Positions 12,552 to 30,217 of a stretch of 33,247 nucleotides of DNA are shown here, piece by piece (the first letter of the stretch is position 1; each line of letters starts with the position of its first letter). A program made the translations under genes and the position numbers. Source of the stretch: a bacterium (GTDB taxonomy: Bacteria > Cyanobacteriota > Vampirovibrionia > Gastranaerophilales > Gastranaerophilaceae); NCBI GenBank assembly GCA_017512405.1, contig JAFWGJ010000010.1, positions 1-33,247 on the forward strand, read 5' to 3'. The notes under the pieces are model-generated. The model saw nothing but the letters and a program-made list of their open reading frames with translations, was not told the origin of the DNA and ran no database searches.

Positions 12552-12636
12552 ACTCCATTGTATACAAATTATAATACAAAATAGGCGATTTTACTTAAAT
12601 ATGAACATTACTAAATAATTGTCATTTTGTTAGTGC

Positions 12637-12651
12637 TATAATTATTGCATG
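12637..12651 (+). promoter_or_regulatory. Extended -10 promoter directly on the AbiEii-like start
   Basis: TGC-TATAAT (TATAAT at 12637-12642) is an extended -10 without a usable -35. The predicted transcription start coincides with the ATG at 12649 and no SD is present, so the toxin mRNA would be leaderless. It diverges from the ABC-3C promoter (TATAAT at 12573-12568, minus strand). Confidence 0.5.
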
Positions 12652-13530: not shown

Positions 13531-14403
13531 ATTCCATCTTTCGCTATATTTTCGGTCTTTTTCTTTAAGTTCCCGCTGAATAAAAAAGCGTAATTCTTTG
13601 TCGTAGTCAAATAATTTTAAATCATCCTCTTTATATCCGGCTTTTTCTAAATAAAACCCAATGGCTTGATGGTGTGGATAAATATAATCTAATTTTATCA
13701 ATATGTCATATAACTTTTGAATATTTACACGGCCTTTTGCCTTTTTATAAACATTTAAAACCTCAAAACAACCACCGCAATAATATGGGCTTACAGCAAT
13801 ATCAATGAGTGTACGTTCTATATTCGTTATATTGATTTTTGCATTATTATAATTTGCTTCTATTATGCCTAGCTTATTACTATATTTGCTCTGTAATAAA
13901 TTTATAGAATAAATATCTTTAACCGTCAGATTTTTACTGATTCGCGCCGGCATATAAAAGGCTTTGTTAATTTCTTCTTGAATAAGTTGCTTTTTAGTAG
14001 TTTCTTTTAATGGTTTTGATTTTTCTAATGATACAAATATAGTTTTAGGAATATTATTAGTTAAATTATGGTATTCTACAGCGGAATAATGACTGAAATA
14101 TGCATTAGAGCTAATACTTTGTATTGCTCGATATAAACTAGGGCTTTCAACAAAATATCTTGTATATGTTTTGGATGGAAATTCCAGTACAAATTTTTCT
14201 TTATAAATATCATTTTGAATTAAATATTTTTGAAAAGCCGTAAATGTTGTTGCAGAATAAATATATTTTTTATCAATACATTCTTTATAAATTTTTCTAA
14301 GCTCGCGAATCCTGTAAAATTCAACTTTTTCATTGAAAAAAGAAAGAATATTCTCTTTATTCTTTTCCATTTTTAATTGAATTGTAGATTTTGAATTACT
14401 CAT
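13507..14403 (-). CDS. AbiEi-like antitoxin / transcriptional regulator
   Basis: 298 residues. The N-terminal part (NILSFFNEKVEFYRIRELRKIYKEC ... SATTFTAFQKYLIQND) looks like a winged helix. The middle, AYFSHYSAVEYHNLTNNIPKTIFVS, is the recurring block of the AbiEi antitoxin family, followed by INITNIERTLIDIAVSPYYCGG, its usual C-terminal signature. AbiEi proteins bind inverted repeats in their own promoter. Here a perfect 11-bp inverted repeat sits directly downstream of the -10. The gene faces its presumed toxin tail to tail with a 24-bp overlap, so transcription of one produces RNA antisense to the other's end. Confidence 0.75.
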   Translation of the reverse strand: MSNSKSTIQLKMEKNKENILSFFNEKVEFYRIRELRKIYKECIDKKYIYSATTFTAFQKYLIQNDIYKEKFVLEFPSKTYTRYFVESPSLYRAIQSISSNAYFSHYSAVEYHNLTNNIPKTIFVSLEKSKPLKETTKKQLIQEEINKAFYMPARISKNLTVKDIYSINLLQSKYSNKLGIIEANYNNAKINITNIERTLIDIAVSPYYCGGCFEVLNVYKKAKGRVNIQKLYDILIKLDYIYPHHQAIGFYLEKAGYKEDDLKLFDYDKELRFFIQRELKEKDRKYSERWNLYYPEFL

Positions 14404-14411
14404 TTCTGTTT

Positions 14412-14463
14412 AATCGGTATTATGTATAATACCGATTATAACATATTTTTTATCAAATTTCAA
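14412..14463 (-). promoter_or_regulatory. Promoter plus operator of the AbiEi-like gene
   Basis: Minus strand: TTGAAA (14463-14458), 17-bp spacer, TATAAT (14440-14435). A perfect inverted repeat follows, with 11-bp arms AATCGGTATTA / TAATACCGATT (14412-14422 and 14427-14437) and 4-bp spacer, covering the start of transcription. This suits autorepression by the encoded winged-helix protein. Confidence 0.8.
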
Positions 14464-14501
14464 CCCCTCTTTAGAATTATTTTTTAAAATTAAGTTATTA
14501 C

Positions 14502-14535
14502 GAATTAAAAGTATCTTGTAAGATACTTTTAATTC
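14502..14535 (-). terminator. Perfect 16-bp inverted repeat, probable terminator of hsdR
   Basis: Arms 14502-14517 and 14520-14535 with a 2-nt loop. It lies about 70 bp after the hsdR stop on the minus strand. The AT-rich outer arms give a T-rich tail, so it can serve as a terminator. A protein-binding palindrome is the alternative. Confidence 0.6.
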
Positions 14536-14604
14536 AAACATAAATAAATTACAATAGTCCTAAAGTATTATATTTTAGACAAAATTATTTCTTAAAATTT
14601 AACA

Positions 14605-17600
14605 TTATTTATACAACTTAGCATTTTTGTTGATTTCATTAATCAAATAAATAATATTATCTGCATCTTTTGGAGCAAAAACTCCGTCTAAGCCTTCGGT
14701 ATTGATAAAAGTGAAAGGTTGTTCAAACAATTTCCCGGTATCCATTGTTCCATTACATTTAATATAGTCAATGATAGTTTCAACAAATCTGATTTGATTA
14801 GAATTAAATTTATTATTATCAAGATATTCGCTGAATACTTTCTCTATTTCGGTTCTTTCAACACCAACAATTGAACGAATAAATTCGCCTAACCCTTTAC
14901 CTTCTTGAATTGTTTGCAGTTGCTCACGAGAACCTATATCAGAATTTTCAAACAATATTTTTTCTAACTGCTCAATATCAAGTTCCGTCAAAGGCTTATT
15001 AAATTTAAGTTTATTTATGCAAATATCATTAACATGCGCCTGCAAAAATGCTTCAACTTTTTTCTTATATTGTGCTATATCAACGCCGCTTGCAGTATTG
15101 ACCGATACGGTTCCCGGTATAGGATCAAGTTCATCTTCAAAATCACTATAAATAATATCTCTTTGGGCATAGTCTATCAGATTTACAAGATTTCTCAATT
15201 TAATACGGACTTCTTCAAGAGTAGATATTGTAACATTTGCCCAAAATTCATCAGTCAAAATACTTTGAATTAATTCTAAATTCTGTTTTACTAGCGGAAT
15301 TGATGATTTTTCTTCTAATCTGAAAGCAATTTCTTTGATATTCTTTTGATATTTTTCAAATTTAACCATATCATGCGCATAATATGATAATTGCGTATTT
15401 AATATCATCAAATCAAAGCGTTTTGCATACTCATCTTCTTCCGGTAAAGTAGTTGGTAAATGAGAAACTCTGTCTTTTATTGTGATAAAGTCGATATCGT
15501 CAAGACTGTTCCATTTTTCACGGTTAGAGAACTCATCAACTGCTCGCAAATGCCGTCTTACAATGAAATTATCCCTATTCATTGTTTTAACGGTATTATA
15601 CAAATCATCCTTAATTTTGTTTGATAAAAGTTTTAAAACTTCATCATCATCTTTAATTTTTTCTGCAAGTTCCAGTTTTTTAAGGAATATTTTTTGTCCT
15701 AAAGACATTTGGTTTAAAGATTTTGCACCTTCCGGATTAATAGAAAAATATTCAAAGTTTCCGCAAGCATCAAATATAAAGAATTTCTTCTTGTCATCCT
15801 TCGGTCCGAATAATTCAGGACAAAGTCTTGTTCCTCTACCTATCATCTGATGGAATTTTGTGCGAGAACGAACGACTTTAAAAAATACCAAGTTCACAAT
15901 TTCCGGAACATCAATACCGGTATCAAGTTTATCAACAGAAATTGCAATAACAGGATCTTCCTCTTTTGTGGCGAATTTATCAATCAAATTCTGGGAATAT
16001 TGAGTTTTATGCGTAATAACTCTTGCAAATTTACCGTTATATTGTTTGTAATTTGCATCAAATCTTTCTGCTATAAATTGTGCATGATTTTCATTTGCTG
16101 CAAAAATAATGGTTTTGCCAAGTTTATCGCCACCATTAACTTTTATACCGTTTTCCATTAGACACTCAAGTATTTTATCAACGGTATCAATGTTAAATAA
16201 CCACTTGTTTAATTGTGCAGCATCAATTTCTTCCGGCAAAGTTTCAGTTTCTTCGTCATAAAACTTTGTTTCGTACTCTTCTTTTTCTTCCGCAGAAAGT
16301 TCATTATATTTAATGCCTTCTCTTAAAAATTTAGTAGCACAGTCAAATTGCTCATAAGGAACTAAATATCCTTGTTCTACTGCTTCGTCGTAATCATAAT
16401 AATCAGTCGGTACGCCGTCTTCAAGTTCAAAGACCTTATAGGTGTTTTTATCGACTTCATCTCTTGGCGTTGCAGTTAAACCAAGTAACAAACCATCAAA
16501 ATAATTAAATATTTCACCAAATTTTTTGTAAATACTTCTATGCGCTTCATCTATTATAATTAGGTCAAAATGCCCTACTGAAAACAGTTTTTCATTTGCC
16601 TTTTTAGCATCAATCAAGTTCATCATAGTATGATAAGTTGAAACAACAACTCTGTTTTCAGCACCATCAACTCCAACTTTAGTAATATCAACAGGGTTCA
16701 AATCCGGCAGGTATTTCGCAAATGCTCTTTGTGCTTGCGTAACAAGTGGTGTTCTATCTGCTAAAAATAAAACTCTTTTTACCCAATTATAACGAGTTAA
16801 AATATCAACAATAGATATTGCTACACGAGTTTTACCTGTTCCTGTTGCCATAACGAGCAATGATTTTCTGCTCTTTTTTGCATAATTTTCACAAACACTT
16901 TTAATTACTCTTTCTTGATAAGGTCTGCCGGAAATGTCCTTGTTGATATCTATATCGACTAAGTCTTTTCTAATGGTTCTGCGAGTAATTAATTTTTCTA
17001 AATCTTCTTTTGAATAAAATCCTGCAACTTCTCTTGGCGGAAAATTCAAATCATCCCAAATAAAATGTTCATAACCGTTTGTATAGAACATTATTGGTCG
17101 TTGTCCAAATTTTTTCTCTAAACAGTTTGCATAAAGCTCTGCTTGTTCTCTACCTATTTTGGCATCCTTCATTGTACGTTTTGCTTCAACTAGCCCCAAA
17201 GGTTTACCGTCGTCTCCCCATAGAACATAGTCAACATAACCAAGGCCCGTCGGATTTGGCATGCCTTGAACTTCATATTCTGTTGCATTAGGAGCAGAAA
17301 TATCCCAACCGACTTCTTTTAGCAAAACATCAATAAAGTATTTTCTTGTTTGCGCTTCGTTATAATCATAATCAAGCGGCTTTGATTTGTTTTGAGCTTT
17401 AATTTGTTTTATTTGTTCAAGAAGTTCTGCATTTTCTTTTTCTAAATCTTCACGGGTTATATTGATAGTATTTTGCTCTTCAATGATTTTTTTTAGGCGT
17501 TCAATTTCTTCCTGTTCTTTTGTTTTTGTTGGAACTTTAGATATATCAAACTTTAATCCGTGTACTGGCTCATCTTTAGAATATGTAAGATATAACCAAT

Positions 17601-17949
17601 AAAGAAAATGAAAAAGTTCAAATGTTGTTTGCAGGGCATCTTTATCGTTAATTCTTTGTGGATTATGTGCTGCAGTATTTCCGTTAATCCTAATTAAATT
17701 AACCTTTTGGAACAACGGCGGAACAATAACATTTTTAAATGATTGCTCATGAACTAATGAATTTAAGGTGCAATCATAGGGTTCAACCAAATCGATATCA
17801 TTTTTGTACATCCACTTTACGGCAGATTCCAAAGCATTACGGCATAAGATACAAGTATAAACCGGCTTTGAATACACACATTCTTCAGCTTCGCTTGCCA
17901 GCTTGTATATATCTAACCATTCAGTTTTTAAGAATTCAAAATTGCTCAT
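14605..17949 (-). CDS. hsdR: Type I restriction endonuclease subunit R with N-terminal DUF4145-like domain
   Basis: About 1114 residues from ATG 17949, which has an AGGTG just upstream; a GTG at 17955 is possible. Order of domains: a DUF4145-like helical domain (about 1-125, with ALESAVKWMY and RINGNTAAHNP); a coiled coil (145-190); the PD-(D/E)xK nuclease (VDYVLWG D240 ... E255-A-K257); the SF2 helicase with ATGTGKT (368-374), IIDEAHRS and the later QMIGRGTRLC; and a C-terminal helical region that docks on HsdM. It provides ATP-driven translocation and cleavage of unmodified DNA. It is preceded by a folded RNA segment with an intrinsic-terminator-like hairpin, which separates it from the rest of the hsd genes and may control it. 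Confidence 0.93.
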   Translation of the reverse strand: MSNFEFLKTEWLDIYKLASEAEECVYSKPVYTCILCRNALESAVKWMYKNDIDLVEPYDCTLNSLVHEQSFKNVIVPPLFQKVNLIRINGNTAAHNPQRINDKDALQTTFELFHFLYWLYLTYSKDEPVHGLKFDISKVPTKTKEQEEIERLKKIIEEQNTINITREDLEKENAELLEQIKQIKAQNKSKPLDYDYNEAQTRKYFIDVLLKEVGWDISAPNATEYEVQGMPNPTGLGYVDYVLWGDDGKPLGLVEAKRTMKDAKIGREQAELYANCLEKKFGQRPIMFYTNGYEHFIWDDLNFPPREVAGFYSKEDLEKLITRRTIRKDLVDIDINKDISGRPYQERVIKSVCENYAKKSRKSLLVMATGTGKTRVAISIVDILTRYNWVKRVLFLADRTPLVTQAQRAFAKYLPDLNPVDITKVGVDGAENRVVVSTYHTMMNLIDAKKANEKLFSVGHFDLIIIDEAHRSIYKKFGEIFNYFDGLLLGLTATPRDEVDKNTYKVFELEDGVPTDYYDYDEAVEQGYLVPYEQFDCATKFLREGIKYNELSAEEKEEYETKFYDEETETLPEEIDAAQLNKWLFNIDTVDKILECLMENGIKVNGGDKLGKTIIFAANENHAQFIAERFDANYKQYNGKFARVITHKTQYSQNLIDKFATKEEDPVIAISVDKLDTGIDVPEIVNLVFFKVVRSRTKFHQMIGRGTRLCPELFGPKDDKKKFFIFDACGNFEYFSINPEGAKSLNQMSLGQKIFLKKLELAEKIKDDDEVLKLLSNKIKDDLYNTVKTMNRDNFIVRRHLRAVDEFSNREKWNSLDDIDFITIKDRVSHLPTTLPEEDEYAKRFDLMILNTQLSYYAHDMVKFEKYQKNIKEIAFRLEEKSSIPLVKQNLELIQSILTDEFWANVTISTLEEVRIKLRNLVNLIDYAQRDIIYSDFEDELDPIPGTVSVNTASGVDIAQYKKKVEAFLQAHVNDICINKLKFNKPLTELDIEQLEKILFENSDIGSREQLQTIQEGKGLGEFIRSIVGVERTEIEKVFSEYLDNNKFNSNQIRFVETIIDYIKCNGTMDTGKLFEQPFTFINTEGLDGVFAPKDADNIIYLINEINKNAKLYK

Positions 17950-18047
17950 AAACACCTATTTGCCGAAATTATTATATCATAAATTTGTGAATTGCTTTTA
18001 CATTTCTTCATGAAAAACTTGATTTTTTTATTAAGAAGTGTAAAAAT

Positions 18048-18224
18048 AAAGAGACAGGAGAAACACTCCTGTCTCTTTAACCACCTGCTAAATGAAGACT
18101 GACGGTGGATTTTAAGGAGTCGGATGTATAGCCTCTAGGGTAAATGAGACCCTAGCCGACTACACATACCAACAAGTTAAATAGTCTGTCTGACCGTCAA
18201 ATCTACAGACTATTTTCTATTTTT
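18048..18224. ncRNA. Candidate structured RNA between the HTH gene and hsdR
   Basis: Four stacked helices in 177 nt: H1 with 13-bp arms (18048-18060 / 18066-18078); H2 CCACC/GGTGG (18081-18085 / 18104-18108); H3 AGTCGG/CCGACT (18118-18123 / 18156-18161) enclosing CTAGGGT/ACCCTAG (18135-18141 / 18149-18155); H4 AATAGTCTG/CAGACTATT (18180-18188 / 18206-18214). A 7-bp long-range pairing (18100-18106 with 18193-18199) competes with H2. On the plus strand a promoter-like TTGATT-16-TAAAAA (18019-18046) and H4 plus a T-tract make a self-contained RNA. On the minus strand H1 plus TTTATTTTT is a terminator ahead of hsdR, so it could be a leader/attenuator. The strand is undecided. The block is GC-richer than its neighbours and has no frame of note. 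Confidence 0.6.
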
Positions 18225-18228
18225 AAAT

Positions 18229-18630
18229 CTAAAAAGGTATTTTATATTTCCAAATATTTATACCTATTTCTTCTACCTCTTCACACGCTCTCAAGTATTT
18301 TTTAGTTGCATTCTCACTAAGTTTTAAGTGGCTAGCAATTTCAGAAGTTGTTGCAGAAATTTTTTCACCTAAAAAATCTGTAATAGATCTAAACCTTAGT
18401 TTTTTTTCTCTTTCTTGTCTTGCTTGTTGTGCCATTTTCATTTTTTCACGTGCTTGAGGCGTTTGATTACCTTTTTGTGTTTGTTGATAAGAAGATTGAT
18501 CTTCATCTTCATTTTTTAAAACTTTGAGGTAATCTCTTGCTACTTTTATTTTGTTTTCAATTCTGCTTTTTTGACATTCCAAATTTTGAATTTGAGTTTC
18601 AATCTGTAAAATCATTTCTTTTTCGTTCAT
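18229..18630 (-). CDS. Small coiled-coil plus helix-turn-helix protein in the hsd locus
   Basis: 133 residues. Residues 1-40 form a coiled coil (MILQIETQIQNLECQKSRIE...). A polar Gln/Lys-rich linker (about 45-80) follows, and a winged-helix-like C-terminus (TSEIASHLKLSENATKKYLRACEEVEEIGINIWKY) resembles small DNA-binding regulators. A strong GGAGGTG SD precedes the ATG. It lies 104 bp after hsdS with TATACT/TATAAG -10-like sequences in the gap, so it may have its own promoter. It sits just before the folded RNA segment that precedes hsdR, making it a candidate regulator of the restriction subunit. Family not recognised. Confidence 0.65.
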   Translation of the reverse strand: MNEKEMILQIETQIQNLECQKSRIENKIKVARDYLKVLKNEDEDQSSYQQTQKGNQTPQAREKMKMAQQARQEREKKLRFRSITDFLGEKISATTSEIASHLKLSENATKKYLRACEEVEEIGINIWKYKIPF

Positions 18631-18734
18631 GTCACCTCCACTACTTATAGTATAACTCTTGTTTTCTAAAGTTTCTAGTTGTTACATATACTTATTTACA
18701 AAAATTTACATATAAGTTTATAAACTACAAGCAA

Positions 18735-19880
18735 CTAGTATTTACTACATACAAATGCTCGTTGGGATAGGGAGTTGAAGAGGTTGTTCATTTGCTCTAT
18801 GACAAGCTCATTCTTCTGCTTCTGCACTTCAACCTGCTCTACTATCTGAACATATTTTCTTTGTTGTTCAATCGGAGGAAGTATAATGTTAAAGTTCTTG
18901 ATTGTTGTCAGATTAAGACAAGGTTGTCCTGCACCTTTAACTTGGCGAACTATATACTCTCTATATGTGTCCATATTCATTTGCAATAACAAAAATTTGT
19001 TAATAATTTTCGTATTATCGCAAGTTATTTTACAAACACCAGTAGTTGATAGTAATGCTTTCTTATGTTGGTCGTACAAACAGGATTTACCTATTGTATT
19101 TCCAACCCTTGCCATTAATACATCACCGTAATCAACCTTGCTACGAATTAATTGTTCATACTTTGACTCTTTGATATACTTAAACTCATCATTATAAAAC
19201 CTACACGGTCTAATGTTATTTATCCTTATAATTGGAATTCCACTTTCATAATAATCTTCATTCTTAAGACTTGAGCCAAAAGGCCCGTCAACAATAGAGT
19301 TCTTCTCAGATGCCTTTATATAATCAATACAAACTTTCTTTAAATTCTTTTCATTCCTTACGGGGTCGCCGAACATGGAGATGAAGGTGGACTTGAGGAA
19401 CTCATCCAGCTTCTCATTCGCCAGCTTCTTCTTCTGCCGAATCTCATCTGCCAACTTCAACTGTGCTATTATTTTTCTTTGTTCTTCAAGGTCAGTAGGA
19501 TATGAAATCAACATTCTTTTGAAGGAAGGAATCTCAAGGTTTCTTTGTCCTGCACCTCTTCCCAAACTATATATTTCGTCATTTTTACTTAATAGGTACC
19601 AGTCTAAATATTCTTGAAGTAGCAAGCTATTGTCTTTGGTAGATACAGTTAGACCACTGTCATTTAGAAAAATCTTTTCATTTACATATCTTGTACACTT
19701 TGGAGACATTGCAAATCTTGACACAACAACACAATTTTCTCGGTTGTATTTGTTTATTCTAAAAGTTTCACCACCACCACCATAAACAGGGTACTCATCA
19801 CCTTCGACTTTGGACTTTACAACTCTTGTACCATAATCTACATTTGCAATATCTTCTAATTTAACTACATTTACCCCCAT
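18735..19880 (-). CDS. hsdS: Type I restriction-modification specificity subunit S
   Basis: 381 residues with the standard two-half plan: first target-recognition domain (about 5-120, with YPVYGGGGETFRINKYN), conserved helical region (LEEQRKIIAQLKLADEIRQKKKLANEKLDEF), second recognition domain (about 180-330, FGSSLKNEDYYESGIPIIRI) and second helical region (PPIEQQRKYVQIVEQVEVQKQ). It chooses the bipartite DNA site for the HsdM/HsdR complex. Its ATG overlaps the hsdM stop by one base (TAATG), which couples their translation. Both halves look intact. Confidence 0.92.
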   Translation of the reverse strand: MGVNVVKLEDIANVDYGTRVVKSKVEGDEYPVYGGGGETFRINKYNRENCVVVSRFAMSPKCTRYVNEKIFLNDSGLTVSTKDNSLLLQEYLDWYLLSKNDEIYSLGRGAGQRNLEIPSFKRMLISYPTDLEEQRKIIAQLKLADEIRQKKKLANEKLDEFLKSTFISMFGDPVRNEKNLKKVCIDYIKASEKNSIVDGPFGSSLKNEDYYESGIPIIRINNIRPCRFYNDEFKYIKESKYEQLIRSKVDYGDVLMARVGNTIGKSCLYDQHKKALLSTTGVCKITCDNTKIINKFLLLQMNMDTYREYIVRQVKGAGQPCLNLTTIKNFNIILPPIEQQRKYVQIVEQVEVQKQKNELVIEQMNNLFNSLSQRAFVCSKY

Positions 19881-21337
19881 TACAGCATCCCCTCAAGTTC
19901 ATTAAGAGAAGTCTGTACTTCGGATTCAAGTGCTTTAATATCAGCCAAAATCTTACTTGGAGCTTCATACTGTACTTCTTCGTATTCAACTTCTTTGTAT
20001 TTGTTAATAGAGAGGTCATAACCGTTCTGCCTTATCTCATCAGCTTCTACAAAGAAATGCTTTGCCTTACGGTCAGAATTATCTTCGTTGTGTCTGTTTT
20101 TGTAGGAGCTTATAATGTCTGGTATATCATTCTCTTCTATCGGAGTACGGTTATCGTTCAAGGTGAAGCCGTCATTCTGCATATCGTAGAACCAAACTTT
20201 ATCCGTACCACCAGAATTAGTCTTTGTGAATATCAGAATAGCTGTTGAGACTCCAGCATAAGGTTTGAAGACACCACTTGGCATTGAAATAACAGCTTCA
20301 AGTTTTTGATTATCAATAAGTTTCTTTCTAATTGATGTATGAGCATTAGATGTACCAAATAAAACTCCGTCAGGAACAATTACGCAAGCTCTTCCACCTG
20401 TTTTAAGTATTCTTATCATCAATGCAAGGAACAAAAGTTCAGTCTTAGTTGTAGAAACTTCGCTTGCTAAGTTCTTTGCAATAGTGTCTTTATTCAAAGA
20501 GCCCTTAAATGGTGGATTTGCAATAACACATGTGCAAAATTCTTTTAATCCGGAAGCATCTTCTGAAAGTGAATCTTGATAATAAATATTCGGGTTTTGG
20601 TGCCCGTGAGACATCATATTCATAGATGCGATACGAAGCATTGAGTAATCAAAATCAAAGCCGTAAAACATATCATTATTGAAGTGCTGAAGTTTTGCAG
20701 TATCCATAAACATTTCAGGATATTTTTCTTTCAGATACATAATTGCACAAATCAAGAAACCTGCAGTTCCGCAAGATGGGTCGCAAACAATATCATTCGG
20801 TTGAATATCGGCTAGTTCAACCATCATTTTACCAATATGCCTTGGAGTTCTGAATTGACCGTTTACACCTGCTTGAGCAATTTTTGATAAAAGGTATTCG
20901 TACAAATCGCCTTTTGTATCCAAATCCTGCATTTCAAGTTTATCAATCATATCAACCGCAGTTGCCAAAAGTGCCGGAGACGGAATCATAAAAACAGCAT
21001 CTTTCATATATTTGGCAAAATTTTCGCCGCCCATATTTTTGATAAACGGAAATACATCTTCCTGAACAATTTTATACATCTCACTTGGTGCAAAATCTTT
21101 AAACTTTGACCAACGCATATTTTGCTGTTTTGGAGTTTCATCAAAAACAGGGTTTTCAATCGGTCTATTAAGACGATTAGCTTTTCTTTCTTCACGAGTG
21201 TGTTTTTCGTCCAACTCTTTTATAAAGAACAAATATGAAATCTGTTCGATAACTGTCAGCGGGTTCGAAATACCGTTTGACCAAAATGTTTCCCAAAGTT
21301 TATCAATCTGTGCCTTTTGCTCTAATATTGTAGCCAT
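19880..21337 (-). CDS. hsdM: Type I restriction-modification DNA adenine methyltransferase subunit M
   Basis: 485 residues, usual length. An N-terminal helical domain (LEQKAQIDKLWETFWSNGISNPLTVIEQISYLFFIK) is followed by the Rossmann-like methylase core: AdoMet motif DPSCGTAGF at 186-194, GFDFDYSMLRIASMN as the next motif, and catalytic NPPF at 274-277. The C-terminus carries the HsdS-binding helices. It methylates adenine at the site chosen by HsdS. It lies 36 bp after the methylase-like fusion gene with its own SD, and overlaps hsdS by one base. The catalytic residues are intact, so this is the active methylase of the locus. Confidence 0.94.
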   Translation of the reverse strand: MATILEQKAQIDKLWETFWSNGISNPLTVIEQISYLFFIKELDEKHTREERKANRLNRPIENPVFDETPKQQNMRWSKFKDFAPSEMYKIVQEDVFPFIKNMGGENFAKYMKDAVFMIPSPALLATAVDMIDKLEMQDLDTKGDLYEYLLSKIAQAGVNGQFRTPRHIGKMMVELADIQPNDIVCDPSCGTAGFLICAIMYLKEKYPEMFMDTAKLQHFNNDMFYGFDFDYSMLRIASMNMMSHGHQNPNIYYQDSLSEDASGLKEFCTCVIANPPFKGSLNKDTIAKNLASEVSTTKTELLFLALMIRILKTGGRACVIVPDGVLFGTSNAHTSIRKKLIDNQKLEAVISMPSGVFKPYAGVSTAILIFTKTNSGGTDKVWFYDMQNDGFTLNDNRTPIEENDIPDIISSYKNRHNEDNSDRKAKHFFVEADEIRQNGYDLSINKYKEVEYEEVQYEAPSKILADIKALESEVQTSLNELEGML

Positions 21338-21373
21338 TGCTATTCTCCTTGTTTTAATTATACATGCTGATTA

Positions 21374-22942
21374 CTAAAAATCTTGTTTCGTTCCGCAAAT
21401 AATGTCGTTTACATCCTGCTCCAGTTGCATAATATCATTTTTTATTTGCTCAAGTTGTTTCCTATATTTTTCCATTTTTGAGGTGTAGTTTTTTATAAGT
21501 TCCTTTTGTTTGGTTAAAGCCGGAACAATTACGGCAATACCTTTTAAATCTTCATGGTTTATAAATGGCATTGCAGTTCCTCTTAGTAGTCCTTTAATTA
21601 ATTTTTGACCTACTGCACTGCGTAAATATGTCAAAAGATATTCAGAACTTATTTGCTTATTATCAGGATGGATTACAAGCAAATTTGCCGATGCAATACA
21701 ATTTTTGTCACTATTTTTATATAAAACAACTTTTGAAGTATTGCCTTTATTTGGGATTAATAAATCTCCGTCTTGCAAATATTCAGAAGATAAATCTTTA
21801 TCGAGTCTATATTTTTTAGCTTCTGAAAAATCGATACCATCCTCTTTTATTGCACGCATATCAAGGTAAATGAAATCTTCATTTTTGTTTGTTTCTTGTG
21901 CATATTTTGATAGAGGCTTTCCCCTTAGTATAGTTGATATTTCTGATAATTTTTTATGGTCTTTATTTAAGACATTTACGATATCTTCATCTTCCTCCTT
22001 GAATGGTTTTTCAAAATCCCAGGTTGAATCAACATTTGTAACTTCAGTTAAATTGTATTTTTCACCTAATGTATCAATCGAATGTGATATAAATAAGTTA
22101 TCAGAATACTCTTTGCTAAACTTATACAAATATGTTTTTATGTTTGTATTACTAAATGTCCCCGATGGTAAATCGATTACCTCAATAAGATTTTTCTCGT
22201 ATGCCTGCCTAAAATGAGCTTCTGTTTGAGAAAAATTAACTTTGCTTGGCATGATTATTGATAAAGTTCCGTCATCTGCCAAATTATTTTTAAATAATAA
22301 TTCTGCTGCAATCGTAGATGAATCATTGCCATAATATTTACCTCTTTCAAAACGACGTTTCAACCCAAATGGTGGAATACACAGTATGTTCTTGAATTTT
22401 TCTTGTTCTTCAAATTGATTATTGTATATATCAACTGCTTTGATGCTTATGTTTTTATTATTTTCATAATCAAAAGCTAAAAGTTCTTGAATAAATGTAT
22501 CAATCGTCCACATTGTAATTTTTTTATTTAATGAACACATTGAAGGAATCTGGTTCAAAAACGTTTCTGCGTTTACAATTAAAATATTGTCTTTATCATT
22601 CAGTAATGTTGAAAAATTAATATTAACATTACAAACAGAATTTAATCTTGGAGATAATGAAACTATTATTGAATAAATTTCTGTTAACGTTAGTTCATTA
22701 AAATTTTTCAAAATCTCAACCAAACCTCTATCGCCTAAAAATCTGTAACCTAAAACGTTGTTTTCTACCAAGTATGTTTCTTGGCTTGAAGATGATAATT
22801 TTTCAAAATTGTGATCATCCCTTTTTGCATACAAATATTGTTTACATGCATTAATGTACTGTTCTTCCGTTAAAACGGAAATTTTAAAGTTTTCTTTGAT
22901 TCTAAGTTCTTTTGTTCTGTTGTCTGATCCAATCGTTCTCAT
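21374..22942 (-). CDS. Degenerate adenine-methylase domain fused to one HsdS-like specificity half
   Basis: Start chosen at MRTIGSDNRTKE (522 residues): an AAAGGA SD precedes it, and the first possible Met of the frame overlaps a TATAAT (23003-22998, minus strand). The N-terminal part follows the type I methylase fold, but the AdoMet motif is not recognisable, and the catalytic NPPF is replaced by CIPPFG (188-193), which lacks the Asn. LLFKNNLADDGTLSIIMPSKVNFSQ is the usual strand after motif IV. From about 340 comes an HsdS-like recognition domain (LSEISTILRGKPLSKYAQ ... YLDMRAIKEDGIDF ... GDLLIPNKGN) and a coiled coil (about 460-515). It is the first gene of the hsd operon. Probably catalytically dead; it may act as an alternative specificity or control subunit. 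Confidence 0.75.
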   Translation of the reverse strand: MRTIGSDNRTKELRIKENFKISVLTEEQYINACKQYLYAKRDDHNFEKLSSSSQETYLVENNVLGYRFLGDRGLVEILKNFNELTLTEIYSIIVSLSPRLNSVCNVNINFSTLLNDKDNILIVNAETFLNQIPSMCSLNKKITMWTIDTFIQELLAFDYENNKNISIKAVDIYNNQFEEQEKFKNILCIPPFGLKRRFERGKYYGNDSSTIAAELLFKNNLADDGTLSIIMPSKVNFSQTEAHFRQAYEKNLIEVIDLPSGTFSNTNIKTYLYKFSKEYSDNLFISHSIDTLGEKYNLTEVTNVDSTWDFEKPFKEEDEDIVNVLNKDHKKLSEISTILRGKPLSKYAQETNKNEDFIYLDMRAIKEDGIDFSEAKKYRLDKDLSSEYLQDGDLLIPNKGNTSKVVLYKNSDKNCIASANLLVIHPDNKQISSEYLLTYLRSAVGQKLIKGLLRGTAMPFINHEDLKGIAVIVPALTKQKELIKNYTSKMEKYRKQLEQIKNDIMQLEQDVNDIICGTKQDF

Positions 22943-22997
22943 AATTGTTTTGTCCTTTCCAACTTTTGTAATACATTTTATAATTTCAATATACATC

Positions 22998-23003
22998 ATT
23001 ATA
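22998..23003 (-). promoter_or_regulatory. -10 box upstream of the hsd operon
   Basis: TATAAT on the minus strand about 55 bp before the chosen ATG; no good -35 at 16-18 bp. It supports the shorter start because the longer one would lie within the promoter. Confidence 0.4.
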
Positions 23004-24002: not shown

Positions 24003-24009
24003 CAATCGA

Positions 24010-24040
24010 CTTGACTTTAAATGCCTTTAGAGTGATGAAT
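24010..24040 (+). promoter_or_regulatory. Shared bipartite motif, site A
   Basis: CTTGA, 15 nt, GAGTGATGAAT; 22 nt lie between the motif and the ATG at 24063, with AAAGGAGG in between. The same 31-bp architecture occurs at 24369-24399 and, on the minus strand, at 29896-29866. Read as a promoter, TTGACT would be the -35 and GATGAA(T) an atypical -10 at 17 bp. Confidence 0.7.
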
Positions 24041-24062
24041 ACGACACGTTAAAGGAGGTCGT

Positions 24063-24284
24063 ATGGAAAAAGTCGGATTGAATATCAATCCAAAAGAGTT
24101 TAAGCAATTGAGCAAGTGGTCGGAGAATATTTATAATACTGCAGTTGTTATTGATTATTTTGTTGCGAATCAGCCGGAAATTGAAGAATGTTATAATCTT
24201 GCACCGGTAGTTAAGCACCTACGAAATAATGCGGATGTTTTGAATGCATTCTTTATAGACCGTGAAAAAGATGTCGAAATTTAA
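24063..24284 (+). CDS. Tiny phage-like protein, unknown (motif-controlled gene 1)
   Basis: 73 residues, with one of the best SDs in the window (AAAGGAGG, 4-5 nt before the ATG). Predicted all-helical: LNINPKEFKQLSKWSENIYNTAVVIDYFV, then EIEECYNLAPVVKHLRNNADVLNAFFIDRE. Acidic C-terminus (KDVEI). No membrane segment. Size, strong SD and clustering with further tiny genes are typical of early phage or mobile-element genes, including anti-defence proteins. The function is not recognised. Its leader carries the motif shared with the transposase operon. Confidence 0.7.
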   Translation: MEKVGLNINPKEFKQLSKWSENIYNTAVVIDYFVANQPEIEECYNLAPVVKHLRNNADVLNAFFIDREKDVEI

Positions 24285-24288
24285 ATAC

Positions 24289-24332
24289 TGTTTAAAAGGT
24301 GTTTAAAAGCCGTTTAAATCGTGTTCAAAAAT
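24289..24332 (+). repeat. Four tandem 11-bp repeats (TGTTTAAAAGN type)
   Basis: Units TGTTTAAAAGG, TGTTTAAAAGC, CGTTTAAATCG and TGTTCAAAAAT follow each other without a gap. The period of 11 bp is close to one DNA turn, placing the A-tracts on one face. Non-coding, between the two motif-controlled genes. Likely a protein-binding array or curved DNA. Confidence 0.65.
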
Positions 24333-24368
24333 TATTGTGTCCAAATGATACGATTTTAGACACATATA

Positions 24369-24399
24369 CTTGATGTTTCCCGCTGAAAGAGTGATGAAT
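24369..24399 (+). promoter_or_regulatory. Shared bipartite motif, site B
   Basis: CTTGA, 15 nt, GAGTGATGAAT, identical in both half-sites and spacing to site A; the 15-nt middle is unrelated. It is followed 11 nt later by AAAGGAG and the ATG at 24424. A GTGTC/GACAC inverted pair (24337-24341 / 24359-24363) lies just upstream. Confidence 0.7.
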
Positions 24400-24423
24400 T
24401 GTGTAGCTTGAAAGGAGCATATT

Positions 24424-24636
24424 ATGATTGAAATCGGTAAAAAGTACAGATTGAAAAAGTTAAAAGGCTGGTTTGAAAAAGATAGCGAAGATTTTACGGT
24501 TGTTTGCTTTGGAGAACACAATATTGTTGGTTGCGTTGCCCAAAATGGTGAAAGATATGTATTTGATAAAGATTTTTTGATTGATCCTGAGAAACCGGAC
24601 GAGATATACGCTGATATTACAATAACGAAAGGTTAA
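24424..24636 (+). CDS. Tiny beta-rich protein, unknown (motif-controlled gene 2)
   Basis: 70 residues, AAAGGAG SD. Pattern of short strands: KYRLKKLKGWFEK, FTVVCFGEHNIVGCVAQNGERYVFDKDFLID, then an acidic/hydrophobic end. It looks like a small SH3-like barrel. The part around GCVAQNGERYVFDKDFLI resembles TCVDKTGKRYNIELDNI of the next gene, so the two may be distant paralogues. First of three genes that follow one another with gaps of a few bases or overlaps. Role unknown; mobile-element accessory gene likely. Confidence 0.65.
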   Translation: MIEIGKKYRLKKLKGWFEKDSEDFTVVCFGEHNIVGCVAQNGERYVFDKDFLIDPEKPDEIYADITITKG

Positions 24637-24639
24637 ACT

Positions 24640-24840
24640 ATGGTTGAAAAAGATTACAAGTTGTACGGGACAAAGATTTTGAATCTTAAAACACAAGAAA
24701 TCGGTTTGCTGATTTGTTTATGGGAGAACAGATTTGCTGATAAAACAGTAGATTTTGCAACTTGTGTTGACAAAACCGGCAAACGATACAACATTGAACT
24801 TGATAATATAAGAGGGTTTGAAGATGATTTTGAAAAATAA
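24640..24840 (+). CDS. Tiny beta-rich protein, unknown, likely paralogue of the preceding gene
   Basis: 66 residues. It starts 3 bp after the previous stop; the SD (ACGAAAGG) is inside the end of that gene. Sequence blocks KDYKLYGTKILNLKTQEIGLLICLWE and TCVDKTGKRYNIELDNIRGFEDDFEK mirror the strand order of the upstream protein. Its 3' end overlaps the next gene's start by 17 bp. No catalytic motif. Confidence 0.6.
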   Translation: MVEKDYKLYGTKILNLKTQEIGLLICLWENRFADKTVDFATCVDKTGKRYNIELDNIRGFEDDFEK

Positions 24841-25057
24841 ATTAACCAAAGAAACATTGGATATTCCGTATTCTGGATTCAGGAAGAAGTTTGCTAAAGA
24901 AATTCAAGATGCGTTTGAAAGTTACCGCCAAACACAATTGAATAAATATTCTTGGAACTTCAAAGACGACAATTCCTTGGAGTTTAATTTTTATTTTGAA
25001 CTTCATTGGAATTTTAATCACTTCGGAATTTCAAATTGGTATATAGAAAGAATCTAA
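24824..25057 (+). CDS. Tiny aromatic-rich protein, unknown
   Basis: 77 residues from MILKNKLTKETLDIPYSG. The ATG has GAGGG 8 nt upstream, inside the previous gene, with a 17-bp overlap in another frame. A basic/acidic helix (FRKKFAKEIQDAFESYRQTQLNKYS) is followed by an aromatic strand-rich end (WNFKDDNSLEFNFYFELHWNFNHFGISNWYIERI). Last gene of the small cluster. No recognised family. Confidence 0.6.
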   Translation: MILKNKLTKETLDIPYSGFRKKFAKEIQDAFESYRQTQLNKYSWNFKDDNSLEFNFYFELHWNFNHFGISNWYIERI

Positions 25058-25225
25058 ATTCTAAAACTCATTATATCTGATATTGTGATTTAAATTAATA
25101 TTGTAATGCTTTGGTGCAACAAGTATCCATTTTTGTCATATTTAACAAGAATAGTTTGATACAATTATCATTAATAAATAATGCCTTATACATTAGTAAA
25201 AATTTGCTAATATTTGAAATTAACC

Positions 25226-25253
25226 TTGTTCAGAATAAAATATACTTTATAAT
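25226..25253 (+). promoter_or_regulatory. Promoter of the DUF3800 gene
   Basis: TTGTTC (25226-25231), 16-bp spacer, TATAAT (25248-25253); AAAAGGA SD before the ATG at 25301. The 243-bp gap upstream is AT-rich with no other structure seen. Confidence 0.6.
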
Positions 25254-25300
25254 ATGCTTATCTTGAAGGTTTAAGATATTAAAATAAAAAAGGACTATAT

Positions 25301-26473
25301 ATGGTTATTAAACAAAAATTACAAGAGATTTTTTTTGATGAATCTGGATTCACTGGTGCAAACTTACTTGACGAAAAACAACCCTTTTTTGTCTATGCCG
25401 CTGTTGCAATAGATGAAAAAGAAGCAGAACAAATTGTAATGAATTTAAAATCAAAATATCATTTGCAAGGAAACGAATTAAAATTTTCTAACATTAGAAA
25501 ACGCTCAACTCAAAAACGTTCTCAAATAATTTCAGATATATTAAAAGAAGTTAATGGCAGATTTTCTTTTGCTTGTTTTGAAAAAAAATATGCTTTGTGT
25601 GCAATGTTTTTCGAGTATATATTTGAACCATGTTTATCAGATAACATAGGGTTGTTTTATTGTGCAGGTTTTCATCATTATATTGCGTACTTATTATACA
25701 ATATATTTTTCAATAAAAAGAGTACTTATTCTATGATGTTTGATTTCGCAAATATTATGAAAGTAAATAATAAATCAAAATTAATTGTAGATTTTATTAC
25801 AAAGTATAAACAAGAAAGGCTTACATCAAAATCGAATAGCATTATAGATATTTTAAAAATTTTTATTAGTAAAAATAAAGATAAAATCATAGAAGAAATG
25901 AAATTATTATCTGGAGATTCTGTCATAGACAAATATACTGGAGACCTAACTTTAACCTCGGTATTTCATATTTGCTCATCTATGTGTAAAAAATTTAACT
26001 CTATTAAAATTACATATGATAAATCTAATATGTTAGATGCGCACATTGATATATTAAAAGATATTTCCAATCATGAATTTTTTATACCAAATTATAATCC
26101 TTTAAATATGGAAAAAAAAGCACGAATAAATATTGATAAAAATATAGAAGATAAAGATTCTAAACAAAGTTATGCAATCCAAGTGGCAGATATGATGTCT
26201 GGAATAATTAATGATTGTTTCAAAACTAAAGATAAAAACATGTTAAAATTACTACTAAAAAATACTATTTATTCTTGTGTTGTTATTCCAGAAATTCATA
26301 TAAATTCGTTTGTTGAAGAATTTGAAATATGTTATTGGAATGTACTAATGTCATTAGTGGAAAATTCTATTAATCAAAAACCACTAGTAGATGACGAAAT
26401 TATTAATAAACTTAATTTATTAACACAAGGTAGCAGATATTATACACAACTAAGTTATATTTATAATTCATAA
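25301..26473 (+). CDS. DUF3800 family protein (RNase H-like fold)
   Basis: 390 residues. It begins with the family hallmark IFFDESGFTG (Asp13, Glu14), then FVYAAVAI and a Lys/Arg-rich helix. Asp240 (KITYDKS) and YAIQVADMMSG (Asp297) complete the three-acid set expected of the DUF3800 RNase H-like core. The middle 110-210 is an inserted helical region (EYIFEPCLSDNIGLFYCAGFHHYIAYLL). Members of this family occur often in defence islands and next to mobile elements and are thought to be nucleases; the target is unknown. It has its own sigma70-type promoter and lies tail to tail with the transposition module, 26 bp apart. Confidence 0.8.
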   Translation: MVIKQKLQEIFFDESGFTGANLLDEKQPFFVYAAVAIDEKEAEQIVMNLKSKYHLQGNELKFSNIRKRSTQKRSQIISDILKEVNGRFSFACFEKKYALCAMFFEYIFEPCLSDNIGLFYCAGFHHYIAYLLYNIFFNKKSTYSMMFDFANIMKVNNKSKLIVDFITKYKQERLTSKSNSIIDILKIFISKNKDKIIEEMKLLSGDSVIDKYTGDLTLTSVFHICSSMCKKFNSIKITYDKSNMLDAHIDILKDISNHEFFIPNYNPLNMEKKARINIDKNIEDKDSKQSYAIQVADMMSGIINDCFKTKDKNMLKLLLKNTIYSCVVIPEIHINSFVEEFEICYWNVLMSLVENSINQKPLVDDEIINKLNLLTQGSRYYTQLSYIYNS

Positions 26474-26499
26474 TGCATTTATATAATATAAAATAACAT

Positions 26500-26913
26500 T
26501 TAAATATGTTCCATTCCTAAAATTTCTCTTTCAATTTGGTGAATAATATCTGGTGTTAATCCTTTCTTTTCAGATTTTTGTTCTGGTTGTAAAGAGTCCG
26601 TATATTGTTTTACAAGCGGAATGTTTTTCAATATATTTATTAAAGAGTAAATTTCAGGCGGTGGAGTTTTTTTATTATTATCAATATCTGCAGAAATTTT
26701 ATTCATTATTTTTCTTGCAAAATCAAGCAACTCTTCACTGAAGCAATATTTTGTATATTCAACTTTAAATCGCTTTTTATCCCAATCGTATTCTTTTTTC
26801 CAATAGAATAAAGTCCTGCGCGAAAGGTCGAGTTTTGTGCCAATCACATCAAGCGGTTGTTTATCGTACACATACATATGCTCTGCCTGTTTTAATTTAT
26901 CTAATTTTGTCAC
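26500..26913 (-). CDS. DUF1804 / small-terminase-like HTH protein of a Mu-like element
   Basis: 137 residues. The N-terminal 45 residues (LDKLKQAEHMYVYDKQPLDVIGTKLDLSRRTLFYWKKEYDWDKKR) are a typical helix-turn-helix opening of Mu-like phage DUF1804 and small terminase proteins, with the WKKEYDW signature. A helical linker (FARKIMNKISADIDNN) and a short C-terminus ending in EREILGMEHI follow. It is last in the minus-strand transposition operon, 2 bp after the integrase-like gene. No large terminase or structural genes follow, so it is either a remnant or a DNA-binding accessory factor. Confidence 0.65.
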   Translation of the reverse strand: MTKLDKLKQAEHMYVYDKQPLDVIGTKLDLSRRTLFYWKKEYDWDKKRFKVEYTKYCFSEELLDFARKIMNKISADIDNNKKTPPPEIYSLINILKNIPLVKQYTDSLQPEQKSEKKGLTPDIIHQIEREILGMEHI

Positions 26914-26915
26914 AG

Positions 26916-27470
26916 TTATACCTCCATAATAATTCTATCTAGTGTAAAATTTGTTTTATCGGATAATCTTCGTACCTGAAAATTGCAAGTCCTATCTATT
27001 ATTCCGAGATTTTGAAAATATTTAATCATCTGATTTAAAAGAGCGAGTGTGTTTTTCAATACTTTTGGCGGTAAATTTCTGTTTTTACAAAAATTGAAAA
27101 ATTTCTGAATATCAGCACATGTAATATCATTTAAGTTTTTATTTTTGTAAAATGGTGCAATGTAGTATTTTAATATTCTGCGATATCTTCTGTAAGTATT
27201 TAATTTGCAATTGTTTTTGACATAATTTTCTAAAAAGTATTCAATCGCAGAATCAATTGTAATAACCTGATAATTTGTCACTTGTTTTGTACAAATGATA
27301 AATTCTTGCTTTAGCTTTTCTTCCTTGTATTTATACAAACCTTGTTCAAATACAATTTTATTTTCGTTCAATAGCCGTTCAAGTTCTGTTTTACAATCGC
27401 ATTCTGCAATCATTTCGATTTCATTCAGGGTAAATTCTTTTAAATGTCGCACCAATTTTTCTATGTTCAT
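26916..27470 (-). CDS. Integrase-like protein with core-binding (SAM-like) domain only
   Basis: 184 residues. The N-terminal half (LNEIEMIAECDCKTELERLLNENKIVFEQGLYKYKEE) resembles a winged helix. Residues about 75-175 (TIDSAIEYFLENYVKNNCKLNTYRRYRRILKYYIAPFY ... DITCADIQKFFNFCKNRN) form the N-terminal core-binding domain of tyrosine recombinases. The catalytic domain with its R-H-R-Y residues is absent, and the protein ends in an orderly way 2 bp before the next gene. It overlaps the AAA+ gene by 4 bp (ATGA), so it is part of the operon and not simply a broken end. Possibly a DNA-binding accessory or target-choice subunit. Confidence 0.65.
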   Translation of the reverse strand: MNIEKLVRHLKEFTLNEIEMIAECDCKTELERLLNENKIVFEQGLYKYKEEKLKQEFIICTKQVTNYQVITIDSAIEYFLENYVKNNCKLNTYRRYRRILKYYIAPFYKNKNLNDITCADIQKFFNFCKNRNLPPKVLKNTLALLNQMIKYFQNLGIIDRTCNFQVRRLSDKTNFTLDRIIMEV

Positions 27471-28147
27471 ACTACTTGCTCCATAATTTCTTTTGTAATT
27501 TCTGTAAAATTATTGTCGTTGGCAAATGTTTCCATCTGGTTTATTAACTGAACAATTTGTCTAAACCTGTTGTATTTTGAATGAATATGTTCAATAGCAT
27601 CGGGGGTAAATGAGATTTCTGACAATTGGTTTATAATCTGTGACAAATCATTTACTCCAAAAGTTTCAAACTTTAGAATCTCCGAAAACCTGTCATAAAG
27701 GTGCTTGTATCTTTCAAGCTTTCTATGCGCCAAACCCATACCGATGAAGATTATCGGACAGTCAGTTTCATCGTGAATATCCCTGAGGGTTTCAATCGTT
27801 TTATAATTATTCATCAGATAATCAATCTCATCAATAAAAATCACTTGCGGATTTTGTTTCAGCTTTTTAACTACGATATTAAAATTATCTGAAGTCAGAA
27901 ATCTCGGAATCTCATCAAGTTCTTTAACAATCTCTTCAAGTAGCCATCTGCCTGTCATAAGGTTTGATGCCCTTAAATAAATTCCGTCATACTTACAAGC
28001 AAGCCATAACGCCGTTTGAGATTTGCCAAGTCCCGGCTCACCGTAAACCAAACCCATTTTTGGAATATTTTTGGGCTTATTAATCAGGTTTTCAACAAGT
28101 CCGATAAAGTTTTTGACATTAGTAGTTTTTACAAAAATTTTATTCAT
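27467..28147 (-). CDS. AAA+ ATPase of the MuB/TnsC/TniB type
   Basis: 226 residues. Walker A GEPGLGKS at 36-43, Walker B VIFIDEID (Asp106, Glu107), sensor-like IIFIGMGLAHRK, and a C-terminal helical lid (LSQIINQLSEISFTPDAIEHIHSKYN). This is the transposition regulator that binds target DNA and activates the DDE transposase. It overlaps the transposase stop by 8 bp and the next gene by 4 bp. Compact like MuB/TniB, without the long N-terminus of Tn7 TnsC. Confidence 0.85.
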   Translation of the reverse strand: MNKIFVKTTNVKNFIGLVENLINKPKNIPKMGLVYGEPGLGKSQTALWLACKYDGIYLRASNLMTGRWLLEEIVKELDEIPRFLTSDNFNIVVKKLKQNPQVIFIDEIDYLMNNYKTIETLRDIHDETDCPIIFIGMGLAHRKLERYKHLYDRFSEILKFETFGVNDLSQIINQLSEISFTPDAIEHIHSKYNRFRQIVQLINQMETFANDNNFTEITKEIMEQVV

Positions 28148-29846
28148 ACAGCAACTTATACTCCTTTGTAGTTTTAAATTCCGTTATCCAGGAATTATTC
28201 GGTTCATTTGCAACTAAATACTCATATTTTTCTGAATTATTTTTGAACAGCGTTTGAACCCTTTTTGAATCCGATTTGAAAGGCATTTGAAGGGGTAAAT
28301 GAGAATCAGATTGTTCTACTTGTGTTTCAAGCAATTTTATATCCTCACTTTGAAGATATTTTTTAACAGATTCAACAGTTTTCTTTTTTAATTGGCGCTG
28401 TCTAACGATTTTTTGCTTGTAATCTTCAAAATCTTTGACATCACCGAGTAATTTTGCCATAGGATGAGTTTCTGTTACGCGCTCTGCAGTGCATAAATAC
28501 TCGCCTTTTGGGGTGTAAACTTTAATACTTGTTAGATCAAAAAGATTGTATTTTATAAGAACTTTGCTCTTAAAACCATATAACCTTTCATCAAAATAAT
28601 CACAATTTAAAAACCTGATACCATTTCGCTGAATTGTTTTTACTTCCGTTGCAAGCATTAAATCGTCAAGAGTACTAATATCAATATTCTGTCTTTCTCT
28701 TTTGGATAAAATTTCCGAAATCGTTTTATCCGGAACAGTCGGGCAGGGCTGTGAATTCTTAAAACTCAACCACATATCAATCATTTTTATTGTTTCTTCA
28801 ATAGTTGGTATGTATTCGTTATGAAGGTTTTTGTGGAACTTTTCATTCCTCATCATATAGGCAGGTTTATTATTTATTGATGAACCAATATAGCTTGGCA
28901 AAAGTTTTTCAAAACCTTCCTGAAATTCTTTGAAAAATCTTTCAATTACTTTGGCTCTGGCATTATACGGGCGAGCAAAAACAGTTTCTATTCCGAGTTT
29001 TGAGTGTAGACCTTGAAAGCCAAGCTCAGTAAAACCCTTATCATCAGTAAAGTATTTAGCTCTAAAAGCTCTGCCGTTGTCCTGATAAACAACTTTCGGT
29101 ATCATATCAAGATTTATTATTGCGTTGCGGAGTGCATTTGCGACACACTGAGTATTTTCTTCAAGCATGATTTCATAACCAACTAGTGCTGTTGATTTCC
29201 AATCCAAAAATCCGACTAATGTCGCTCTGCAGGGTTTGCCTGTAAACGGATTAATAACCTGAAACGCTAATTTATGCCCGTCTGCAACAAGAATATCCCC
29301 GACTTCAAGTAAACTTGCATCACGCTTTATATAGGGTTCAACTTTGTCTGAAAGTGCTTTTTCGCCATCACGTGCCAAAATCCATTTGTCGTAATTGTTA
29401 TTCTTAAACCATTTTGCATATCTTCTAAATGTAATATCAGCAGGGATAAAACTTTGTCCCTTTTCTTTCAGTTTGTATTTAGTTAGCGAAATTGCTTTTC
29501 CAATAGACATTCTATTTGGGTGTAAAAGCAAACCCATAAATATTTTTATTTCTTCATCATTCAGAACTGTTCGGTATTCCAGAACAGTTGAATATTTATA
29601 TTGCGGCAGAAGTTTTGTATAATCTTCGGTTCCGTTTAACATAGCATACCAGCGGTGTAAACTTCCTCTGGAAATTTTACCTATAATCTCAAATAGATGT
29701 GAGTTTGAAGTATTATGTAATTTCGCAAAATCATAATCTGCCTGAAGTTTATTTTTAGATTGTTTTCTAAACTCAAGCCATTTATGAACAACGTCTAATC
29801 TTGCTAGAGCTATTTGTTTACATTTTTCTGGTGTGAAGTTTGTCAT
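28140..29846 (-). CDS. Mu-like DDE transposase (MuA/TnsB family)
   Basis: 568 residues. An N-terminal helical DNA-binding region (1-160) is followed by an RNase H-type catalytic core with Asp189 (ILVADGHKL), Asp256 (VVYQDNGRA) and Glu302 (AKVIERFFKEFQ), all three catalytic acids present. A Mu-type beta-barrel C-terminal domain (about 370-460, with RFLNCDYFDERLYGFKSKVLIKY) follows, then a charged tail that in MuA contacts the AAA+ partner. First gene of the four-gene minus-strand operon. Its start carries motif site C and a GAGG SD. It should cut the element's ends and join them to target DNA. The catalytic core looks intact, so mobility is possible. Confidence 0.88.
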   Translation of the reverse strand: MTNFTPEKCKQIALARLDVVHKWLEFRKQSKNKLQADYDFAKLHNTSNSHLFEIIGKISRGSLHRWYAMLNGTEDYTKLLPQYKYSTVLEYRTVLNDEEIKIFMGLLLHPNRMSIGKAISLTKYKLKEKGQSFIPADITFRRYAKWFKNNNYDKWILARDGEKALSDKVEPYIKRDASLLEVGDILVADGHKLAFQVINPFTGKPCRATLVGFLDWKSTALVGYEIMLEENTQCVANALRNAIINLDMIPKVVYQDNGRAFRAKYFTDDKGFTELGFQGLHSKLGIETVFARPYNARAKVIERFFKEFQEGFEKLLPSYIGSSINNKPAYMMRNEKFHKNLHNEYIPTIEETIKMIDMWLSFKNSQPCPTVPDKTISEILSKRERQNIDISTLDDLMLATEVKTIQRNGIRFLNCDYFDERLYGFKSKVLIKYNLFDLTSIKVYTPKGEYLCTAERVTETHPMAKLLGDVKDFEDYKQKIVRQRQLKKKTVESVKKYLQSEDIKLLETQVEQSDSHLPLQMPFKSDSKRVQTLFKNNSEKYEYLVANEPNNSWITEFKTTKEYKLLYE

Positions 29847-29865
29847 AATAAATTACCTCACACAC

Positions 29866-29896
29866 ATTCATCACTCACCTTTCGGAATAAATCAAG
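29866..29896 (-). promoter_or_regulatory. Shared bipartite motif, site C (transposase operon)
   Basis: On the minus strand: CTTGA (29896-29892), 15 nt, GAGTGATGAAT (29876-29866), then GAGG and the transposase ATG 19 nt later. Same half-sites and same spacing as sites A and B upstream of two tiny genes 5.5-5.9 kb away. Confidence 0.7.
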
Positions 29897-30080: not shown

Positions 30081-30217
30081 GAATAGTCCGGCAAATCTCT
30101 ACAATATAAACTTGCCTTAAATTAGCAACAACTCGGCATTATCGCCAATAAAAACGCATCCAAACCGTCCTGAAAGATTATACCCCGAAAAGTGATTAAA
30201 GTCCTACCCATAACATT

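Follow-up and report, generated by a model that had tools for sequence, protein, structure and literature searches.

We have studied a bipartite sequence motif that occurs three times in a contig of 33,247 nucleotides from a member of the Gastranaerophilales (the whole stretch analysed, hereafter the window). Two copies precede tiny genes, and the third precedes the operon of a Mu-like transposase. What kind of signal is this, does it belong to the transposon, and what reads it? The initial annotation offered two answers, a promoter with a TTGA −35 element and an unusual −10 sequence, or the binding site of an activator of the Mor/C type found in phage Mu, and considered the motif to be element-specific.

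The motif and the transposon in the window

The window contains exactly three exact matches to CTTGA-N15-GAGTGATGAAT, with identical spacing. Copy 1 (24010–24040, plus strand) lies upstream of tiny gene 1, copy 2 (24369–24399, plus strand) upstream of tiny gene 2 and copy 3 (29866–29896, minus strand) upstream of the transposase operon. The motif ends 22, 24 and 19 nt, respectively, before the ATG codons at 24063, 24424 and 29846, and the sequence of the 15-base spacer is not the same in any of the three copies. Our analysis thus reproduces the three exact sites, the 15-nt spacing with differing spacers and the distance of 19–24 nt to the start codons that had been annotated initially. The accompanying judgment that chance was a very unlikely explanation is also upheld; with up to three mismatches the window has four matches against 0.47 expected, none of 100 shuffled sequences reached four, and control patterns gave few matches in the wider searches described below.

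Tiny gene 1 (24063–24284, plus strand) encodes 73 amino acids and is conserved with transposons of the same family. Tiny gene 2 (24424–24636, plus strand; 70 amino acids) is predicted from a weak fold match to encode a small SH3-like barrel; comparison of the fold with the PDB gave no significant match, with no E value below 0.001. Two more tiny genes of 66 and 79 amino acids (24640–25057, plus strand) apparently belong to the same transcription unit as tiny gene 2, and the 79-amino-acid product matches phrog_34337.

The minus-strand operon comprises four genes. The transposase (28140–29846; 568 amino acids) is a Mu-like DDE enzyme (Mu-transpos_C, 1.1e-14; phrog_310, 7.7e-85), and it is accompanied by a MuB/TniB-like AAA ATPase of 226 amino acids (27467–28147; AAA_22, 3.2e-13; TniB, 2e-7; phrog_296, 1.8e-39). 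A MuA-type transposase and a MuB/TniB ATPase are both encoded, as in Mu-like transposons. A 184-amino-acid protein (26916–27470) matches the integrase SAM-like N-terminal (DNA-binding) domain, and no integrase catalytic domain was matched in the domain searches. The fourth product (26500–26913) is a helix-turn-helix protein of 137 amino acids (phrog_756 DNA binding protein, 2.6e-12), whose structure model has a pLDDT of 82 and gave weak matches in the PDB, none of them significant.

The right terminus of the transposon is placed at 30167–30183 on the minus strand (TATAATCTTTCAGGAC / TATARNCTTTCAGGAC) by a break in similarity to related insertions; the terminus is conserved, and similarity stops there in many independent insertions with different flanks. 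This end, near 30183, adjoins a tRNA gene, and no left-end partner for it was found within the window. To the left of the transposon there is a defence island (9196–22999) with LmuA/LmuB (Lamassu-type), AbiEi/AbiEii and a type I restriction-modification set, the last including a second specificity-like protein. Of 288 genomes of the host family, 192 encode a relative of the transposase, and those that are named are mostly rumen and gut Gastranaerophilales. Four records labelled Clostridia, Acinetobacter, Fusobacterium and Clostridiaceae (L225, L234, L251 and L270) have transposases 78–90% identical; they are probably mislabelled or mixed assemblies.

Distribution of the motif

The three copies in the window are the only exact ones in the whole host genome (1.93 Mb in 161 contigs). 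Near copies, CTTTA-N15-GAGTGATGAAT and CTTTA-N15-GAGTGATTAAT, are present in a phage-like contig of the same genome (C99), where they precede a 293-amino-acid gene and a homologue of tiny gene 2. This contig encodes a serine recombinase, and no MuA-type transposase was seen among its ORFs. These observations bear on the proposal that the motif binds the tiny genes into one element with the transposase. It holds in so far as many loci have the tiny-gene block (24009–25060) close to this transposase, but since tiny-gene homologues carry the motif in C99 too, sharing of the motif is by itself no proof of a single element.

A looser form, TTGA-N15-GAGYGATKAAT, was found in 159 of the 288 genomes of the host family, with at most 10 sites in each; the reversed pattern was found in one genome. 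Elsewhere in the phylum there were 15 matches compared with 3 for the control, in about 160 genomes. In 80 related loci chosen for the transposase (L208–L287; 1.32 Mb), TTGA stands exactly 15 nt upstream of GAGYGATKAAT in 79 of 83 copies. Among upstream offsets of 5 to 29 none came near this count except 29 (31 of 83 copies), possibly reflecting leader sequence shared by related transposons.

The motif is also widespread in phages of other bacteria. The exact form is present in at least 120 IMG/VR phage contigs, with 28–66% GC among the matches listed, while the backwards motif was found in 3 contigs, a 14-nt gap in 6 and a 16-nt gap in 17. A sister form, CTTGA-N15-GAGTGATATAT, which ends in GATATAT, is at least as common, with at least 120 IMG/VR contigs (within L357–L475). 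Gardnerella phage vB_Gva_AB1 is a named carrier of the exact motif, and variants were found in Streptococcus phage Javan105 and in Ca. Heliusvirales phages of Coprococcus and Evtepia. The −10 region differs between taxa mainly towards A/T (GATGAAT, GATTAAT, GATATAT). Because the viral sites were picked by exact match, among the matches listed, the true consensus may be looser. Evidently the motif is not element-specific, as had been supposed, given its presence in 159 of 288 family genomes and in hundreds of unrelated phage contigs. A candidate betaproteobacterial form, GAGCGTTCATA or GAGCGTGAATA, was noted in an Eleftheria terrae plasmid (L324), upstream of positions 5665, 6405, 6865 and 7338, where it precedes a DUF3489 gene and neighbouring small genes.

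Which genes follow the motif? In the 80 transposase-bearing loci an ORF follows at 88 sites (53 transposases, 34 tiny genes and one other) and is lacking at 13; as the loci were selected for the transposase, these counts show which element genes bear the motif and not how frequently host genes do. In other phages the motif precedes serine recombinases, small genes of the DUF3489 type and of what we take to be the DUF2924 type, and other short ORFs. The sister form mostly precedes recombinases (serine recombinases among them), DUF4314-like genes and other small genes. At unrelated sites a ribosome-binding site and an ORF start mostly follow about 20–45 nt downstream. One contig (L153) has seven copies, each before one of seven small genes. 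In L069, L090, L093 and L097 the small-gene cassettes are oriented against the structural genes, and therefore need a promoter of their own. A recurring copy, CTTGACTTTTATTGCTACAAGAGYGATTAAT, is followed by a ribosome-binding site with no ORF in L271, L273, L275, L276 and L286; as a bare reading, such copies might mark a non-coding or decayed gene.

Promoter-like architecture

An alignment of 108 non-redundant sites reveals A/T tracts upstream of the motif, phased at intervals of about 11 bp. The A/T content peaks at positions −3/−4 (0.92), −14 (0.78), −25 (0.78) and −38 (0.79), with a baseline of 0.58. If CTTGA is taken as the −35 box, the peaks fall at about −41, −51, −62 and −75, the region where the α domains of RNA polymerase bind UP elements. 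The sites thus possess the A/T tracts of an UP element. They also have a TTGACA-like −35 sequence, in which TTGA was fixed by the query and is mostly followed by T or C. They lack a TATAAT-like −10 sequence at 16–18 bp, having GATGAA or ATGAAT at 17 or 18 bp. TGA-TATAT is found only at 19 bp and in the sister form, and the best fit to an extended −10 requires a 19-bp spacer. The −10 region is instead an 11-mer that is nearly constant across distant hosts, with no match to TATAAT at normal spacing. Visual comparison with the consensus sequences of σ28, σ32, σ54 and σH led to the rejection of each, because either the spacing or the sequence did not fit.

The presence of the motif, its fixed spacing, its position before genes, the phased A/T tracts and its wide spread are direct observations, and they support the view that it is under strong selection. 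The strict 15-nt gap, the location just before the ribosome-binding site and the phased upstream tracts are the grounds for reading it as a promoter. On the sequence evidence it is probably a σ70-like promoter with an UP element and a non-standard −10 region, representing a class found in phages and other mobile elements; that such a class is real and common to mobile elements, despite the failure to find a standard −10, we consider just as probable. The initial proposal of a promoter is to this extent supported, as a promoter-like signal, by the fixed gap, the UP-element-like tracts and the placement before genes.

Where transcription starts, the contacts made by α, the need for an extra factor and the timing of expression we infer. 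CTTGA(C/T) would serve RNA polymerase as the −35 box, with the α C-terminal domains on the phased tracts and GAG(T/C)GAT(GA/TA/AT)AT occupying the −10 region. Transcription would begin 6–7 nt past the motif, just before the ribosome-binding site. Using the phase of the UP element, the predicted starts in the window are at about 24046–24047 for copy 1, 24405–24406 for copy 2 and 29859–29860 (minus strand) for copy 3. The motif would then drive single small-gene cassettes and integrase or transposase operons separately from the structural genes, in the manner of a moron promoter. With a −10 region that is invariant yet unlike TATAAT, the housekeeping σ would probably need help from a dedicated factor for recognition.

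Comparison with known systems sharpens this description. σ70/σA promoters with UP elements share with the motif the TTGA −35, A/T tracts at about −41, −51 and −62 and a start just before the Shine-Dalgarno sequence, but they have TATAAT where the motif has GAGTGATGAAT or GAGTGATATAT, an 11-mer near-invariant across phyla. Phage moron promoters likewise drive small genes one at a time, in some cases against the direction of the structural genes. Morons as a rule rely on ordinary, unrelated host promoters, whereas here one specific motif is common to many carriers. In the recombinase cassettes of Bacillota phages (Ca. Heliusvirales, vB_Gva_AB1, Javan105) the exact motif or a close variant lies just upstream of recombinase or small genes; these differ from the window in having serine recombinases rather than a Mu-like transposase, and in many a σ-region-4-like helix-turn-helix gene lies upstream. 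No description of the motif was found among open-licence papers, including those on moron promoters, and text matches to the motif string were unrelated.

Alternative readings and the presumed recognizing factor

Recent duplication of one leader, or chance, would be the simplest account of three matching sites, and leaders are indeed partly homologous within the transposon family. But the spacers in the window differ, the backwards and wrong-spacing controls gave few matches and the carriers include unrelated phages; the control patterns have already refuted this reading, to which we give practically no weight. The activator alternative of the initial annotation has not been borne out either. 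Four genomes with motif-bearing full Mu-like phages do have Mor-family genes (PF08765) near the motif genes, and the motif resembles Mu middle and late promoters, which are activated by Mor or C, in being a phage promoter with an imperfect core. Those promoters have an upstream activator dyad and no −35 box. The motif retains its −35 box and has no conserved upstream dyad, or indeed any conserved upstream bases except the phased A/T; most carriers are without Mor, which is absent from the window's genome (92% complete) and from 48 motif-bearing virus records; and in the full Mu-like phages the motif does not stand in front of the transposase. The motif is outside the Mor/C promoter class, and that it is a site for such an activator is very improbable.

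A better case can be made for an operator overlapping an ordinary promoter, with a repressor or activator occupying both half-sites in tandem. The half-sites share TGAT (TTGAT and GTGAT) at a separation of 21 bp, two helical turns, so that they resemble a direct repeat on one face of the helix, and the invariant 11-mer is far from a σ70 −10 box. Yet position 6 varies between T and C in the first half-site and is an invariant T in the second, the motif is not palindromic, the carriers do not all have a regulator gene in common, and the geometry of polymerase accounts better than an operator for a site whose distance to the start codon is fixed across phyla. We regard it as unlikely, if less so than a role in the RNA. 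The latter might be a structured leader, or a promoter set in a hairpin that masks the ribosome-binding site in read-through RNA, as in some T4 late genes. Long complementary arms do occur in a subset (11 bp in L148, 12 bp in L166, and in L061/L064, L063, L088, L202 and L150), those of L061 and L064 differing by a compensatory change, and leader self-pairing exceeds that of shuffled sequences (combined p = 8e-5). Against this, the native read-through RNA of 61 leaders is no more closed than shuffled RNA (p = 0.13), the three leaders of the window show no closing effect on read-through, Rfam gave no leader family match (only tRNAs exceeded the gathering threshold, and weak matches were chance-like), and a spacer held strictly at 15 nt is not what RNA stems usually show. 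An RNA function for the motif has little to commend it. The inverted repeats are a feature of a subset only; in L148, L166, L061, L064, L063, L088, L150 and L202 the spacer of 15 nt contains one arm, and its partner is close to the ribosome-binding site. In some leaders the 5′ arm is upstream of the predicted start, which a pure promoter leaves unexplained. A box C/D kink-turn was also considered for GTGATGA; the sister form GAGTGATATAT does not preserve it, and the idea was set aside.

Returning to the promoter reading, the same signal stands before mobile genes of very different bacteria, and we therefore infer a widely shared recognizer. No recognizing factor common to all motif carriers was found. 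It is conceivable, and we put it forward tentatively, that a dedicated initiation factor or σ-appropriating protein with one conserved specificity (TTGA-N15-GAGYGAT) serves unrelated mobile elements across several phyla, with integrases, transposases and small accessory genes forming a shared, horizontally portable regulon. If so, one portable promoter would mark sites of integration and accessory genes in the mobile elements of very different bacteria, and the motif would provide a simple sequence handle for finding such cassettes, many of unassigned function. The questions raised are which factor reads the non-TATAAT −10 region, and whether the factor of one element activates the genes of another.

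The 137-amino-acid helix-turn-helix protein of the window is a candidate regulator solely through its membership of the operon. ParB-type proteins are frequent in motif-bearing phages, but there are none in the window's genome, and σ-region-4 proteins are common in Bacillota records and missing from many others. Most matched cases in Bacillota phages have, 140–202 nt upstream of the motif, a σ-region-4-like helix-turn-helix gene with zinc-finger cysteines; that of vB_Gva_AB1 bears the annotation RNA polymerase subunit sigma-70. This gene was present in 28 of 120 and 27 of 120 loci compared with 1 of 25 controls, but in none of the 80 Gastranaerophilales loci, and was rejected as a general recognizer. 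It adjoins the motif and recombinases in L063, L079, L081, L103, L104, L119 and L325, and in L104 the motif stands before the helix-turn-helix gene itself.
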